The notes below the pieces were generated by a model. The model saw only the letters and a list, made by a program, of their open reading frames with translations, was not told the origin of the DNA and ran no database searches. A program made the translations under genes and the position numbers. From contig PBMO01000025.1 in assembly GCA_002722595.1 (NCBI GenBank), positions 1 through 35,291 of the forward strand: a stretch of 35,291 bases of DNA, given 5' to 3'. Position 1 is the first letter of the stretch. Each line of letters opens with the position of its first letter. Origin of the DNA: Methanobacteriota archaeon (lineage in GTDB: Archaea; Thermoplasmatota; Poseidoniia; Poseidoniales; Thalassarchaeaceae). This document shows positions 22,211-29,515 of the stretch, piece after piece.

Positions 22211-23374
22211 ATGAAGTTAGGCGTTCTTGTGGAAGGTGGAGATGAAACTCGAGTTGCTATTGTACCGAATTCAGTTCCGAAGTTGATGAAATTGGGCTTT
22301 GAAGTAAACGTCGAATCTGGTGCTGGAATTTCGTCTCACCACTTGGATTCCGAATATGAGGCCAAGGGTGCTTCTATTGTCAGTCGTGAAGTTGCTATTG
22401 GGTGCGAAATTCTGATTTGTATAGGTGCACCTAATTTCTCAGCACTTTCGGAGGGGCAAATTGTTGCTTGTGTATCCGACCCATTCCGACACCCAGAGAG
22501 GGTCAAACAAGCAATGGATTCCAAGATTACGCTGATGAGTATGGACATGATCCCACGTCGTCTTTCTCGTGCCCAAGCGATGGATGTAAACTCCAGTCAG
22601 GATAATTTAGCAGGGTACAAAGCAGTGCTAATGGGGGCGGCTCAAGTACCCAAGGGCATCCCGATGATGACCACTTCTGCTGGCACCGTGCGCCCTGCCA
22701 AATTTGTAATTATGGGCAGTGGAGTGGCTGGTTTGCAAGCGATTGCTACTGCCAAACGATTGGGTGCAATCGTCTATGCTTCCGATGTCCGGAAGTCAAC
22801 TGCTGAACAGATTCAATCCGTGGGTGGTCGATTCATCGAAGTCGACGGGATGGATGACTTTGAGGATGATTCTGGATATGCAAAGCCACTCACTCCAGAG
22901 TTTATTCAGAAGGTCAACGATACGGTTTGTGAAGTTGCTGCTGATGCTGATGTCATCGTTACCACTGCTCGAATTTTTGGCCGACCTGCTCCCATCACCG
23001 TACCTGCATCAGCTGTCTCCAACTTCAAGCCTGGCTCGGTAGTTGTCGACATGAATGCGGATGTAGGCGGTAATTGCGAGTTGACCACCGCTGGTGAAAT
23101 CGTCACAACCGACAATGGTGTAACCATCGTGGGGACAACCAACCTCCCAGGGCAGTTAGCTTCCACTGCGAGTATGTTATACTCAAACAACTTGACCACT
23201 TTTGTAACCTCTCTTGTCAAGGATGGTGAAATTGTCATTGATCCAGATGACGACATATTGTTTGGCGCGCCTGAAGGTAGTGACTTCTACGTCTCCGGCA
23301 TGGGTGGTGTACTAGTTTGTATGAATGGGGAAATCCATGAGAAACAAACACGCCTAGCAGAGGTGGTTGGATGA
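22211..23374 (+). CDS. pntA: NAD(P) transhydrogenase alpha subunit, domain I (PntA, part 1)
   Basis: 387 aa, the soluble NAD(H)-binding part of proton-translocating transhydrogenase, which uses the ion gradient to move hydride from NADH to NADP+. Visible are the RQD-type loop (SSQDNLAGYKAV, ~128-139), the Rossmann motif G169-S-G-V-A-G174, and the downstream acidic D192 binding the adenosine ribose. AGGTGA (22199-22204) sits 6 nt before ATG 22211. The last four bases overlap the next start codon (ATGA, 23371-23374). The split into three polypeptides matches the Rhodospirillum-type arrangement. Confidence 0.96.
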   Translation: MKLGVLVEGGDETRVAIVPNSVPKLMKLGFEVNVESGAGISSHHLDSEYEAKGASIVSREVAIGCEILICIGAPNFSALSEGQIVACVSDPFRHPERVKQAMDSKITLMSMDMIPRRLSRAQAMDVNSSQDNLAGYKAVLMGAAQVPKGIPMMTTSAGTVRPAKFVIMGSGVAGLQAIATAKRLGAIVYASDVRKSTAEQIQSVGGRFIEVDGMDDFEDDSGYAKPLTPEFIQKVNDTVCEVAADADVIVTTARIFGRPAPITVPASAVSNFKPGSVVVDMNADVGGNCELTTAGEIVTTDNGVTIVGTTNLPGQLASTASMLYSNNLTTFVTSLVKDGEIVIDPDDDILFGAPEGSDFYVSGMGGVLVCMNGEIHEKQTRLAEVVG

Positions 23375-23697
23375 GTTTGACGCTTACTGCATTGATAGGT
23401 AGTATCACTGTATTCGTATTGGCTATTTTCCTTGGCTTTGAACTGATTAGCAAGGTGCCACCGACTCTTCATACACCGTTGATGTCCGGCGCCAATGCGA
23501 TTTCAGGCATCACCGTTGTAGGTGCACTCATTCTACTGAATAACAATAGTTGGAACGATGGCGACCCTGGCACTGCAGCTTGGTTGGCTTTCGCTGCACT
23601 TGTAATGGCAACCATCAATGTAGTGGGTGGCTTCATGGTGACCAACAGAATGCTGGAGATGATTGCTGGAAAGAAGAAGAAGAAGGGAGGTGACTGA
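23371..23697 (+). CDS. NAD(P) transhydrogenase alpha subunit, membrane part (PntA, part 2)
   Basis: 108 aa with an N-terminal helix, the conserved SKVPPTLHTPLMSGANAISGI segment, and two further helices, ending in a lysine-rich tail (KKKKKGG). This is the four-helix membrane domain that in E. coli is fused to the C-terminus of PntA; here it is its own gene, as in Rhodospirillum rubrum pntAB. ATGA overlap with the preceding gene indicates translational coupling. Its 3' end carries the strong ribosome site of pntB (GGGAGGTGA, 23685-23693). Confidence 0.95.
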   Translation: MSLTLTALIGSITVFVLAIFLGFELISKVPPTLHTPLMSGANAISGITVVGALILLNNNSWNDGDPGTAAWLAFAALVMATINVVGGFMVTNRMLEMIAGKKKKKGGD

Positions 23698-23698
23698 A

Positions 23699-25144
23699 AT
23701 GGTCGACCCAGTCGTATGGGACATTGGATATCTGATGTCTGCAGCACTCTTTATCCTCGGTATCAAACGATTGTCGAGCCCACGCACCGCACCACAGGGA
23801 AACCGTTTGGGTGCTTACGGAATGCTACTCGCTGTATTGGTCACGATGGCCAAACTCTATTCTGAGGAATTAATCGGTATCGAACTCATTGCGGGAGGCC
23901 TCATCATAGGGTCTGTCATAGGCGCTTGGCTGGCTATTCGAGTCGAAATGACGGGTATGCCCGAACTGGTCGCATTGTTCAATGGGTTTGGTGGCGGCGC
24001 TTCGGCATTAGTAGGATTCTCTGAAGTATTGGATCGCCTCGACAAAGGTAATGTTCCCGATGCAGGTGTTGAACTATATGCAACTTGGATTGCCATCGGT
24101 TTGTCCGGTTTAGTTGGTTGGCTTACCTTAACTGGCAGCCTCATGGCTATGGGTAAATTGATGGGTGGGTTCTACATTCCATTCACTAAGAAGGATGACC
24201 GTGGCCGTCGGAAGTGGGTTAACTTCCCTACTTGGGGACCCCCTTGGTTGAATTTCGTCAAGGGTCTCTTACTAATTGCCTCACTGGCACTGATTGTATT
24301 GACCATTCAGGAACCAGGTAACAAGGACTACGTGTTCTACCTTGTTGGCACGTCTTCTATGCTCGGTGTACTGTTCGTACTACCAATTGGTGGTGCAGAC
24401 ATGCCTGTGGTTGTAAGCCTACTCAACTCACTGTCTGGCATCGCCGCTGCTTTCACAGGATTTGTGATTGGCAACAATGTTCTAATCATCGCCGGTTCAA
24501 TGGTTGGTGCTGCAGGTTTGATTTTGACTTTCATCATGTGCAAGGCGATGAACCGCACACTTCCCGCTGTCCTGTTCAAGTCGTTTGGAGGCGGGGGCAA
24601 AGAAACAGTCACTCGAACAAAAGTTGGTAGCGACCCCGAAGAGGTTGCCATGGTCTGCGATGGCATAAGCAAGTGTGTCATCATCCCTGGTTACGGAATG
24701 GCAGTCAGCCAAGCGCAACATGCTGTCAAGGAATTCGCTGATTTACTCGAAGCAGAAGGTGTCGAGGTCAGTTACGGAATTCACCCTGTTGCGGGTCGAA
24801 TGCCCGGTCACATGAATGTCCTGCTGGCTGAAGCGAATGTCCCGTATGAACAACTCATTGAGATGGACGAAATCAACTCTGAATTACCAGAATGCGATGT
24901 CGCTCTTGTGATTGGTGCCAACGACACAGTCAATCCCGTCGCTCGCAGTGGCGAGGGCCCACTCGGTGGCATGCCCATTATCGATGCTGACAAAGCACGA
25001 GTGGTTGTAATCATCAAGAGAAGTTTATCGGTTGGATATGCTGGTGTCGATAATGATTTGTTCTATGAGGATAAAACGATGATGTTATTCGGTGATGGGA
25101 AGAAAATGATGAACGAATTAAATTCCGCCTTTAAGGACCTTTGA
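23699..25144 (+). CDS. pntB: NAD(P) transhydrogenase beta subunit
   Basis: 481 aa, the usual length. The first ~270 residues form the membrane proton channel (domain II helices). The C-terminal ~190 residues are the NADP(H)-binding domain III, with VIIPGYGMAVSQAQ, GIHPVAGRMPGHMNVLLAEA and VIGANDTVNP. ATG 23699 follows GGGAGGTGA with 5-nt spacing; a TTG at 23663 would add an arginine-rich stretch and is not preferred. The operon ends with the perfect hairpin at 25158-25177. Confidence 0.96.
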   Translation: MVDPVVWDIGYLMSAALFILGIKRLSSPRTAPQGNRLGAYGMLLAVLVTMAKLYSEELIGIELIAGGLIIGSVIGAWLAIRVEMTGMPELVALFNGFGGGASALVGFSEVLDRLDKGNVPDAGVELYATWIAIGLSGLVGWLTLTGSLMAMGKLMGGFYIPFTKKDDRGRRKWVNFPTWGPPWLNFVKGLLLIASLALIVLTIQEPGNKDYVFYLVGTSSMLGVLFVLPIGGADMPVVVSLLNSLSGIAAAFTGFVIGNNVLIIAGSMVGAAGLILTFIMCKAMNRTLPAVLFKSFGGGGKETVTRTKVGSDPEEVAMVCDGISKCVIIPGYGMAVSQAQHAVKEFADLLEAEGVEVSYGIHPVAGRMPGHMNVLLAEANVPYEQLIEMDEINSELPECDVALVIGANDTVNPVARSGEGPLGGMPIIDADKARVVVIIKRSLSVGYAGVDNDLFYEDKTMMLFGDGKKMMNELNSAFKDL

Positions 25145-25231: not shown

Positions 25232-26227
25232 TTGTCTCGTGCATCTATTCGATTCGCAGTCCTCCTCACATTGCTCTTACTCTTGGCAGGTCCGGCTTTT
25301 GCCGCACACCTTGGCCCCCCTTCGGATAATAATGGGGATGGGTCTGGAGAAGCGACATGGCGTGCTGGTTGTTCCTGTCATGCTGCATCACCATCAACAT
25401 CTACCTTAGTGAAAGTTTCAGGCGTTCCAGCTGCCTATGAAGCAGGGCTATCTTATACAATGACATTGACACTTGAGCACTCAACAAATGCTGGGGGAGG
25501 GTTCTTCCTCTCTACAGAAGGTGTTGGTACATTTTCTTGGACAGATGATCAACTGATTCGACCAGAAAAGGATAGTGGCGAGGATAAAACTGCAACATCG
25601 ACCGGGTCAGGCATTACCCAATCAGATTACACATCTCCTGCTGAATGGATTTTCACATGGACTGCCCCTTCATCCGACGTAGGCGATATTGGTTTCTGGG
25701 TTGTAGGTAACATGGTTGACGGCGATGGCGCCCCTGGTGCCACAGATCATTGGAATGGGCTCACATTCATCATTAATTCACCATCTACTACAAGTGCAGC
25801 AGCTGATCAAAGCACTAGAGTCATTTCGTCAGGGGATGCTAGTTTATTCGATCAAACAGTAGACGAAGAAGCACTTGAGATTGAACGACAGCACGCGCTC
25901 TCTGAAGTTGTGATGCACAATGGAATTGTATGGTTCTTCATCACACTAATTGCACTTGTTGTAGGTGCAGTTGTACAGAAGGAAATTTTGGAACGCAGGT
26001 ATGGAACTGGTCCAGCCCACCTTGATCGGCAACTCGCATATCCTGAAGGCCTCCGCCGCTCATTATTAGCAATAGGAACAGCATTTTTGGGGATGACTTG
26101 GTTGGCTGGAGATTCTGCAACTTACCTTTGGTCCACAGCTTTCTTCATATCGATTTGGTCTACATATGGTGTTTATCGAACTATTTTGGCAGCTCGTACA
26201 CCTCCAACTGTGAAGGATATGATGTGA
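25232..26227 (+). CDS. Exported CxCH protein resembling choice-of-anchor V proteins, with C-terminal membrane helices
   Basis: 331 aa. TTG 25232 is supported by GGAGGG (25220-25225), 6 nt upstream, and by a clean signal peptide ending at AFA-A (~24). Directly after it comes C47-S-C49-H50, followed by a beta-rich domain (VSGVPAAYEAGLSYTMTLTLE). The order resembles choice-of-anchor V domain proteins, which have CxxCH at this place; here one spacer residue is missing. Three hydrophobic helices follow (~229-248, then two near 275-315), leaving the last residues in the cytoplasm. Covalent haem binding is possible but doubtful with CxCH. It is 9 bp upstream of the TatC fusion gene. Confidence 0.7.
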   Translation: MSRASIRFAVLLTLLLLLAGPAFAAHLGPPSDNNGDGSGEATWRAGCSCHAASPSTSTLVKVSGVPAAYEAGLSYTMTLTLEHSTNAGGGFFLSTEGVGTFSWTDDQLIRPEKDSGEDKTATSTGSGITQSDYTSPAEWIFTWTAPSSDVGDIGFWVVGNMVDGDGAPGATDHWNGLTFIINSPSTTSAAADQSTRVISSGDASLFDQTVDEEALEIERQHALSEVVMHNGIVWFFITLIALVVGAVVQKEILERRYGTGPAHLDRQLAYPEGLRRSLLAIGTAFLGMTWLAGDSATYLWSTAFFISIWSTYGVYRTILAARTPPTVKDMM

Positions 26228-26236
26228 GGGTTTTGA

Positions 26237-27346
26237 GTGGATCTTCATCTCTCAAGAGATAGGCCCCAGTATCTTCGAGCACATGTTGACGAATTGACGA
26301 ATCGTGCATCTGCTCTTTTATTTCTTCTAAGTTTAGCCACTGTTTTGTGGTGGGTTGTAATTGATTCAGTAATCGAAACATGGTTGAATAATTTGCCATT
26401 AGGTATTGCCCATGGCACGATTTCAGTTTATGACCCACATGGTTGGATGAGTACACGATGGTCGATGATATCACTTCTCGCGCTTGTAACAACTCTACCT
26501 TTTGCCGCACATCAGTTGATTCGATTCACGGACCGAGGTCTCTTACCTAGTGAGCGAAAGTGGTTACGAATCGTCACAATTGGAGGTACATCTTTTGCAT
26601 TATTCTGCAGCTATTATTGGTGGGTTTGGGGGTACCCGCTTGCAATTGAGAACTTAGGCTATGCAGGGAATATATCTGGCATAGGCGCACGCTATGATGC
26701 AGTGCAATTATTTGATGTTGGGATTGGTGTTTCTTGGTGGCTATTTTTGGTAATAATCTCTACAATTGGTTTGACAGTCGCTCGTTTACTATCGATGGCC
26801 CTAATCGAACCATTAGATCCATTTAGAATTCGAATCCATGGGACCGTTCTACTTGTTTGGTGGTTGGCTTGCCCTACAGTAATGACCAATATCTGGCCAT
26901 TTGCAGCCCTTAGTTTGGTGATTTTGCCTGAATTTATCCTACTCTTCTCTCCCTCCTTATCCTTAACAACCTCCGGTCGCTCTCCTTCATCAGTCTTTGA
27001 TTCAGAGGGAAAAATACATCGAAAAGCCATCGCTCTTTGCGGTTGTGAAGGTGCCTGTCCAAGTATACCTAGCGAATCACTAAATCCTCATTTAGGATGT
27101 GTAAAATCACAGGCATTGTGTTTAGATGCGGATGCCCGCGACACACTACTTGATTATGTGATTCGAAACCAAGCTACTCAGTTATTGATAAGTGGATGTG
27201 ACGGTACACCATTACCTGTTGATTTTCGACAATCGATAAAGGCAGCATCGTGCGAACTCAGTGGGATGAATTGGCTCGATAACGATACTAAAGAGTCAGA
27301 TAGAATTGAAATGGTCAACCGTTCCATTACATCATTGAATAAATGA
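26237..27346 (+). CDS. tatC: TatC-like translocase subunit fused to a cysteine-rich HdrA-N-like domain
   Basis: 369 aa. GTG 26237 has GAGGG (26226-26230) 6 nt upstream. Residues ~1-240 are TatC-like: the cytoplasmic start with H16-V-D-E19-L, a first helix, a loop, FTDRGLLPSERKWL (E106 corresponds to the conserved ERR region after helix 2), and four more helices ending at ~238. The glutamate usual in the fourth helix of bacterial TatC is not evident (IGVSWWLF). The C-terminal ~110 residues carry C268, C270, C274, C288, C295, C321 and C339. Their layout (ALCGC at a strand end, ALC-x6-LLDYVIR, LLISGC, then F-R-x2-I) resembles the N-terminal domain of heterodisulfide reductase subunit A. The fusion is in one uninterrupted frame. 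The TatC call is firm by pattern; the HdrA resemblance is by eye and its function unknown. Confidence 0.75.
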   Translation: MDLHLSRDRPQYLRAHVDELTNRASALLFLLSLATVLWWVVIDSVIETWLNNLPLGIAHGTISVYDPHGWMSTRWSMISLLALVTTLPFAAHQLIRFTDRGLLPSERKWLRIVTIGGTSFALFCSYYWWVWGYPLAIENLGYAGNISGIGARYDAVQLFDVGIGVSWWLFLVIISTIGLTVARLLSMALIEPLDPFRIRIHGTVLLVWWLACPTVMTNIWPFAALSLVILPEFILLFSPSLSLTTSGRSPSSVFDSEGKIHRKAIALCGCEGACPSIPSESLNPHLGCVKSQALCLDADARDTLLDYVIRNQATQLLISGCDGTPLPVDFRQSIKAASCELSGMNWLDNDTKESDRIEMVNRSITSLNK

Positions 27347-27388: not shown

Positions 27389-29515
27389 TTGTCTCGCGGC
27401 TTTATGAGTCGCCTTGCTAGGGTCGCTATTGCGGTGGCTCTCATACTTGGTGGACAGTGGTTGGCAGGACAACCGGAACTGTATATGCCCCTCTTCGATG
27501 CTATTAGAGAAGAAGTCTATGTGACCAATGATGCGGAAATCGTTGAAATGCAGGATGATGAGCAGTGGTTGGTATTGATAGTTGAATTCCCAGATGCACT
27601 TTCTGGACCAGGGAAAAACCATCAGCGAGCAGATGTAATGCTAACTGGACAGAATTCTGCTGCAACTTATTTTTCAGAAATTACCGGTGGCCGGACTACT
27701 CTAACAGCAGATATCGTGCAGGATATACATACGGCGGATTTTGATGAATCTTCATATGGAAGAGACGCGAATGGTGAACGCGATGTGGGAGATGATGGTT
27801 CAGGTGGTCCAGCAGGACTAGTGGAAGAAGCCATGACTAGTACATTCAGCGACGTCGACCTATCACCGTATGACATCGACGGTGACGGTTGGATAGATCG
27901 ATTATTGGTATTACACACTGGTGGTGCACAAGAAGATGGAGGTGGTACTAATGCCATATGGAGTCATTATGCACCAATTTCTCCAGGTTTCTCCGTTGGA
28001 GATTATTCCATTGGTTCCTATACAATGGCATCATTTTCATCCGGGATGGGGACTATGATTCACGAAATGCTGCATATGTTTGGTGCCGTGGATTTGTATG
28101 ATGTTCACAGCGCAGTACCTAGCAGTGATTGGAGCGGTCTTGGTGCTTGGGATATTATGGCGAGTGGTAATTGGAATGGTAATGGAAGAACTCCCGCTCT
28201 TCCATCATCGGGGACACTTGAGTTGATTGGTGCAAACACTGCACTTGAACTTACAATGGGCCAATACGGGCCTGAAAACCAGACCTATATCATCCAACCA
28301 CATGTTGCCCACACTGGCACTGTCAGAATTGAAATTGCAGCAAATGAATATATCTGGATGGAGTCAAGAATCAATAGTGGATTTGATCGGGAGATACCAT
28401 CTCATGGTTTATTGGTCACACAAGAGGACAGATTTTTCGCAGATTTTGAGCACAATGAAGTAAACCGAGATCCAGATCACGCCTATCTCAAAGTCATTGA
28501 GGCTGATGGTGATGACAGTTTAGCAGCCGGTGATGATGATGATCCGGGAGATGTATTCACAAGTGGTTCCTTTGGTGCAAATGGAATTGAGATTCGTGAT
28601 GGGCATGGTCGCTTGGTACCTTGGGTGGTTTATGTGAATGATTTTGACAGTTCAGGGACTAATGTTACAATAAACCATTTCGGCCCTTCAGGAGCCGAAA
28701 TTCTACCTCCAAGAACTCCTGTTCGTTTGCTTGGGGACGAACAAATAGGTGTGCAATTTTCTGCAAAGGATGACTGCACCCCTTGGTCAAACTTGACTAG
28801 TACAGATGGCCGTAATATCACCTTGGAGAATACAGAAATGCTTGCAGCCGGTGATGATGTAGAGTTGTTCCTCTCGTTTTCAGAATCCGCAGTTTCAGGG
28901 ACGACCGGTTTCATAGAGGGATTAATTGGATGCGGGGGTGTTAATCCAACTGATATTCTGCTCGAGTGGTCAGTTTCTACAAATCGCCTCATACAATTGC
29001 CCTTCCAGGCTGAAATTGACGTGACTGAAATCGTGTCTCTGGAACATATCCTCGCTTTTGATGGAAGTGGTTACAAAGCATATGATGTTGTAATTGAGGG
29101 TCCTTTGTCAAGAATTGCATCTACGAGTAGTTTGCAATCACTGGGTGATGGCAGTGTTTTGACACTAGAGATTAATCCTAATGGCTTACTTTCCCCAGGT
29201 ATGCTTGCGAATGGAAAAGTGCAGTTATACGACGATTTTGGCCTTGCGGGAGAATTCAATGTATCGCTTCAAGCCGAACCTCCTGGCGATGTTGGAAGCG
29301 CTCTCATGTGGCTCGCAGAACCTTCAAACAACATCCAACTAGTATCCATAGTACTCGCCTTCTCAGTGATATTTGGCGGGAGAAAAACGCCCAAAAAACC
29401 ATCAATACCTGGACAGATTATTCCAGCGCACCAACAATCATTACCGATACGCGCACATCACAATTTCGTTAGAGAACCGTATGACGAGTTTGGTAACTTC
29501 CGCGGTAATCAGTGA
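27389..29515 (+). CDS. M6-family metalloprotease (immune-inhibitor-A-like), membrane-anchored
   Basis: 708 aa. TTG 27389 is preceded by AGGGG with 5-nt spacing; ATG 27404 is the alternative. The signal peptide has no twin arginine. The catalytic site is H225-E226-M-L-H229-x2-G232-x2-D235, followed by the methionine-turn region GLGAWDIMASGNW, characteristic of M6 peptidases. Calcium-type acidic motifs (DIDGDGWID, ADGDDSLAAGDDDDPGD) are present. Beta-rich accessory domains follow, then a hydrophobic helix (~645-665) and a short basic tail. It probably degrades proteins outside the cell. It follows the TatC fusion by 42 bp and its stop overlaps that of the convergent endA by 7 bp. Confidence 0.92.
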   Translation: MSRGFMSRLARVAIAVALILGGQWLAGQPELYMPLFDAIREEVYVTNDAEIVEMQDDEQWLVLIVEFPDALSGPGKNHQRADVMLTGQNSAATYFSEITGGRTTLTADIVQDIHTADFDESSYGRDANGERDVGDDGSGGPAGLVEEAMTSTFSDVDLSPYDIDGDGWIDRLLVLHTGGAQEDGGGTNAIWSHYAPISPGFSVGDYSIGSYTMASFSSGMGTMIHEMLHMFGAVDLYDVHSAVPSSDWSGLGAWDIMASGNWNGNGRTPALPSSGTLELIGANTALELTMGQYGPENQTYIIQPHVAHTGTVRIEIAANEYIWMESRINSGFDREIPSHGLLVTQEDRFFADFEHNEVNRDPDHAYLKVIEADGDDSLAAGDDDDPGDVFTSGSFGANGIEIRDGHGRLVPWVVYVNDFDSSGTNVTINHFGPSGAEILPPRTPVRLLGDEQIGVQFSAKDDCTPWSNLTSTDGRNITLENTEMLAAGDDVELFLSFSESAVSGTTGFIEGLIGCGGVNPTDILLEWSVSTNRLIQLPFQAEIDVTEIVSLEHILAFDGSGYKAYDVVIEGPLSRIASTSSLQSLGDGSVLTLEINPNGLLSPGMLANGKVQLYDDFGLAGEFNVSLQAEPPGDVGSALMWLAEPSNNIQLVSIVLAFSVIFGGRKTPKKPSIPGQIIPAHQQSLPIRAHHNFVREPYDEFGNFRGNQ

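Follow-up and report, generated by a model that had tools for sequence, protein, structure and literature searches.

The window, a 35,291-nucleotide stretch of DNA from Ca. Poseidoniales, encodes a TatC protein, hereafter TatC2, the C-terminus of which carries a domain related to the iron-sulfur N-terminal domain (HdrA-N) of subunit A of heterodisulfide reductase, an enzyme of methanogens. A second TatC, TatC1, is encoded in the same genome (G000:C43), and the two proteins have lost complementary sets of residues. The protein is of a known kind, TatC; what is new is its division in two and the redox-type domain. Computation showed the fusion and how it is conserved, the tail's relation to HdrA-N and the complementary residue loss, as well as the TatA gene and a Rieske client bearing a twin-arginine (RR) signal. 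To explain the whole, we propose that TatC2 is the RR-binding subunit of a heteromer and that an Fe-S tail couples the export of cofactor proteins to redox or Fe-S status, a reading to which we give an even chance.

The gene, its TatC core and the residues expected to contact the signal peptide are located as follows (type 2 designates TatCs of the window's kind).

26237..27346, plus strand: tatC2-hdrAN fusion gene, a single reading frame of 369 codons (369 aa) with a GTG start; supported by the open reading frame, the Pfam TatC match and the AlphaFold2 model
26237..26971, plus strand: TatC core, residues 1-245, six predicted transmembrane (TM) helices; signal-peptide half conserved, TM4-TM6 half divergent
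26282..26293, plus strand: codons H16 to E19, equivalent to E. coli H12 to E15, for contacts with the twin-arginine signal (role in PMC13323110); type-2 TatCs have H in 96/97 and E or D in 89/97
26525..26554, plus strand: codons F97 to E106, equivalent to E. coli F94 to E103, of the loop that binds the twin-arginine motif; F and E in 97/97 type-2 TatCs

An earlier note, made from the sequence alone, had read this frame as a six-helix TatC core followed by a C-terminal tail, and the description held. Pfam TatC (PF00902) matched residues 16-142 with 49.2 bits, above the curated cut-off of 25.1. With the NCBIfam TatC equivalog TIGR00945, the score was 36.2 bits, far below the cut-off of 132.7, showing that the window's TatC is a divergent member. 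In the AlphaFold2 model (pLDDT 85), six long membrane helices are followed by a folded beta-alpha tail, and the TatC fold is supported by Foldseek matches to 9e01, 4b4a and 4hts. TatC was the only domain found by Pfam and NCBIfam in the whole protein, which ends after the HdrA-N-like domain; HdrA's thioredoxin-reductase-like FAD domain and ferredoxin domains are absent according to the same two databases. TatC has an established N-in/C-in topology and the tail should therefore be cytoplasmic.

This C-terminal domain of about 95 residues carries seven cysteines, at positions 268, 270, 274, 288, 295, 321 and 339, exactly where the earlier note had placed them. Its main features are the following.

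27002..27286, plus strand: HdrA-N-like tail core, residues 256-350, supported by hhalign, by profile matches to HdrA and by Foldseek
27038..27046, plus strand: C268-x-C270 codons, conserved in 68/69 and 65/69 fused proteins
27119..27121, plus strand: C295 codon, conserved in 67/69
27197..27199, plus strand: C321 codon, conserved in 68/69, the remaining sequence having an ambiguous residue

No significant match to the tail was obtained from Pfam, NCBIfam or PDB sequences by plain single-sequence and profile HMM searching. Therefore, profile-profile and fold methods were used. With hhalign, the alignment of the tail profile to 22 HdrA N-terminal domains had P=8e-5 with the four cysteines in register, as compared to 0.11 and 0.23 for reversed controls and 0.03-0.7 for unrelated families. 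When the tail profile, built without any HdrA, was searched against the genomes of the phylum, the best matches outside the order were HdrA proteins, and all seven off-order matches that were opened (7/7) were HdrA or HdrA-N fusions. Foldseek searches with the full model returned TatC structures first and then HdrA chains, with a probability of 0.97-1.00. A tail-only model of a relative (pLDDT 92) had HdrA as all six of its best PDB matches. Over the two fold searches, the superposition was moderate (TM-score of the query, TMq, about 0.2-0.3). Overall, tail and HdrA N-terminal domain are related, and the resemblance first seen by eye was upheld by the controlled alignment, the blind profile search and the fold searches.

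Variants of the domain were also observed. In family f2 and genera g6 and g11 (L031:1213-1845 and others), an extra domain of about 70 residues, predicted with high confidence, follows the HdrA-N-like core. The idea that the C-terminal extension of f2 is the HdrA FAD domain was dropped, hhalign having aligned the N-domain only. In L194:693-1841 and L195, HdrA-N occurs attached to ferredoxin and FlpD/MvhD domains while the FAD domain is absent; HdrA-N behaves as a mobile module.

C268, C270, C295 and C321 were all kept in 64/69 fused proteins. C339 (46/69) and C274 (40/69) were less conserved and C288 was not conserved, so that the cysteine conservation sought in orthologues was found for the former four, in part for C339 and C274, and not for C288. 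Tails are about 20-50% identical to the window's tail, and retention of all four cysteines despite this divergence argues for selection on them. Decayed cysteines were seen in the tails of L061, L068, L069 and L072. The HdrA N-terminal domain binds its cluster with one cysteine from a partner HdrA (PMC9012536); therefore, the four tail cysteines do not guarantee HdrA's cluster type. These conserved cysteines probably hold an Fe-S cluster.

By protein search, relatives were found in 169/195 genomes of the class; a search for related loci with the whole protein as query gave no matches. The tail-core profile alone had matches in 122/190 class genomes, always on the TatC2 paralogue, either in frames of TatC length (about 300-530 aa) or in pieces of such frames that are interrupted or lie at contig ends. 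No stand-alone tail gene was found among these 190 genomes with this profile. The fusion is also present in a one-contig genome (G002). Chance and an assembly artefact, the latter named in the earlier note as a way for its reading to fail, were rejected on the grounds of the 122/190 genomes and of this one-contig genome. One fused gene, L007 (G109:C62), alone among the TatC2 fusions has stops in frame, one TAG and one TAA, at the core-tail junction; these point to an assembly error or a recent pseudogene. Named relatives belong to Ca. Poseidoniales (Thalassarchaeaceae, Poseidoniaceae, Marine Group II), and the sister group, f3, is likely Marine Group III. Among the 65 TatC2 loci of named genomes, 47 were fused and 18 short. 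In the TatC2 tree, the tail is absent from the sister group, and the well-supported branches cannot be explained by fewer than three changes. The history of the tail would most simply be one gain followed by several losses, at least three of them independent. Repeated loss in relatives shows that the tail is accessory rather than essential.

Two TatCs, of which the earlier note had seen one, are encoded in most class genomes. The match to solved TatCs was best in the N-terminal half for type 2 and in the C-terminal half for type 1. Residue conservation was mapped on E. coli TatC using 97 type-2 proteins, 31 type-1 proteins and 25 TatCs from outside the class. In type 2, P85, F94 and E103 were found in 97/97, H12 in 96/97 and E15, as E or D, in 89/97. 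In type 1, H12 and P85 were each found in 0/31 and F94 in 1/31, while F169, E/Q170, P172 and P221 were each present in 31/31. Conversely, the TM4-TM6 motifs are lost from type 2 of Poseidoniales, with E/Q170, P172 and P221 each in 0/88. Type 2 of the sister group (n=9) was less decayed (P172 in 9/9, E/Q170 in 4/9). Both halves were kept in the 25 TatCs that belong to other families in the phylum and are single copies in nearly every case.

In the E. coli structure, H12, E15, F94 and E103 hold the twin-arginine motif, and each TatB of the core complex is flanked by TM5 of one TatC and by TM1 of the adjacent TatC (PMC13323110). TatC is moreover an obligate oligomer (PMC5102672). As TatB bridges adjacent TatCs, it makes structural sense that neighbouring subunits could each supply one of the two sites. 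We consider it rather likely, from the reciprocal pattern of residues, that TatC1 and TatC2 form one heteromeric receptor.

Further variation was seen among the TatC frames. In about 30/69 TatC2 sequences, from family f2, the first extracytoplasmic loop contains two cysteines, at the columns of TatC2 residues 56 and 61, which possibly form a disulfide. TatC frames of 478-589 aa with an apparent N-terminal extracytoplasmic domain occur in other Thermoplasmatota-type genomes (L165, L172, L174, L176, L182), and the TatC frame of L169 (654 aa) has a C-terminal repeat-like domain; these are possible other TatC fusions.

A single TatA was found in 27/29 relatives. The best Tat signals in relatives, as scored with the TAT-signal HMM, belonged to the Rieske Fe-S protein of the cytochrome b operon. 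Rieske relatives were present in 113/119 class genomes, only the C-terminal part matching in f3. The motif DRRxF was read in 29/30 Rieske loci, including that of the window's own genome (L221), the exception being an N-terminally truncated match. The strict DNA pattern S/T-RRxF-x-K occurred at background level in this genome, with no match at a real N-terminus. The Rieske Fe-S protein, with its DRRxF signal, is evidently a client of the Tat system. Genomes lacking the tail, and those in which its cysteines have decayed, also have the RR-Rieske protein. The tail is therefore not required for Rieske export.

The genes around tatC2 are kept in the order pntA1-pntA2-pntB, GCxCH protein, TatC2, M6 protease and endA nearly throughout the order, tail-less TatC2 included. 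In the window, the neighbours are the following.

22211..25144, plus strand: pntA1-pntA2-pntB transhydrogenase (PNT) genes, which usually lie next to the block on its upstream side but are not adjacent in genus g8
25232..26227, plus strand: choice-of-anchor-V/Reeler-like protein with a GCxCH motif (NCBIfam NF041895, 72 bits), upstream neighbour in practically all loci
27389..29515, plus strand: M6-family metalloprotease, conserved downstream neighbour

The GCxCH gene ends 10 bases 5' of tatC2, and its product has C-terminal hydrophobic segments that are probable TM helices. In the conserved GC-x-CH motif, a single residue separates the cysteines, in contrast to the CxxCH of c-type haem. A GCxCH paralogue adjoins the Rieske and cytochrome b genes in the Rieske operon (L213-L216). 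The pnt-TatC2-M6 block was also seen in L258 (PATH01000041.1), titled Acidimicrobiaceae bacterium; as this block is archaeal (84% PntB identity), the bin is probably mislabelled.

We propose that in Ca. Poseidoniales TatC2 would act as the signal-peptide-binding subunit of a heteromeric Tat receptor, with the twin-arginine site in its N-terminal half. TatC1 would supply the TM4-TM6 half with the TatA/TatB docking region, and the single TatA would complete the system. The HdrA-N-related domain borne by the cytoplasmic C-terminus of TatC2, in which the four cysteines would most likely hold an Fe-S cluster, may be used to couple the export of cofactor-bearing clients, evidently Rieske, to cytoplasmic redox or Fe-S status, either by acting as a gate or by serving as the docking site of a redox or assembly partner. 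Here, the heteromer, the cluster binding and the regulation are what we infer from the sequences. A role for the cluster in tying export to redox or cluster status, or else in the docking of an assembly partner, is put forward tentatively. Gating or proof-reading of Tat export by an Fe-S tail, as suggested in the earlier note, is plausible. An obligate TatC1-TatC2 heteromer with recognition and TatA docking divided between its subunits, in which the HdrA-derived Fe-S domain on the recognising subunit would switch the export of Rieske and other cofactor proteins by redox state or cluster supply, seems somewhat doubtful.

TatC2 may instead have left export and serve as a membrane anchor or electron conduit by which a cytoplasmic Fe-S domain is linked with the transhydrogenase and the neighbouring GCxCH protein of the membrane. 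Such a role would agree with the highly conserved neighbourhood, with the loss of the TM4-TM6 motifs and with the GCxCH paralogue of the Rieske/cytochrome b operon. However, RR-binding residues are kept near-absolutely in TatC2 and are absent from TatC1, while RR-bearing clients persist, and the gene order is the same beside tail-less TatC2; we regard this role as quite unlikely. Zinc bound by the tail cysteines, or a thiol/disulfide switch made by them, might regulate or stabilise the receptor in place of an Fe-S cluster. This is unlikely, too: the related domains that share the tail's fold and all four of its cysteine positions are of the Fe-S type, even though the spacing of cysteines does not by itself fix the ligand and one HdrA ligand comes from another subunit (PMC9012536). 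The retention of all four cysteines in divergent tails also weighs against a remnant or structural docking domain that has lost its redox role. This last explanation, with which the independent losses of the tail and the four tails with decayed cysteines are consistent, appears very improbable.

It has long been an open question whether Tat receptors sense the state of cargo that bears cofactors, and most known proofreading resides in separate chaperones. A redox-type domain within the signal-binding subunit makes such sensing by the receptor directly testable. A naturally split TatC pair would reveal which halves of TatC are able to work in trans; it amounts to evolution's genetic dissection, in an archaeal group among the most abundant of the surface ocean. 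Together, the fusion and the split pair suggest a possible link between export and redox or Fe-S status. In the open-licence literature, no paper was found on a TatC-HdrA fusion, on a split TatC pair or on Tat in Marine Group II; the one text match proved to be a primer sequence.

As compared to the TatC (PF00902) of the E. coli and A. aeolicus Tat receptors, TatC2 has the six-helix fold and the positions H12, E15, P85, F94, L99 and E103 in common, but it lacks E170 and P172 of TM4, the polar-cluster residues T208/Q215 (TM5-TM6) and P221; it also bears an HdrA-N-like tail and would work beside a reciprocal TatC1. The tail shares with the HdrA N-terminal Fe-S domain (PDB 5ODC, 7BKB) the fold and the C-x-C...C...C pattern in register. 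It differs by a shorter spacing from C-x-C to the third cysteine and by a diverged second half of the domain, and the protein lacks the FAD and ferredoxin domains of HdrA, being fused to a membrane translocase subunit. In haloarchaeal TatCt, two TatC units are joined in one chain and work together, as proposed for TatC1 and TatC2, whereas the Poseidoniales TatCs are separate genes with reciprocal decay and an Fe-S-type tail. Bacillus, like Poseidoniales, has more than one TatC per genome. However, Bacillus TatCd and TatCy are described as isoforms (PMC3827258), whereas each Poseidoniales copy lacks one half of the critical residues.
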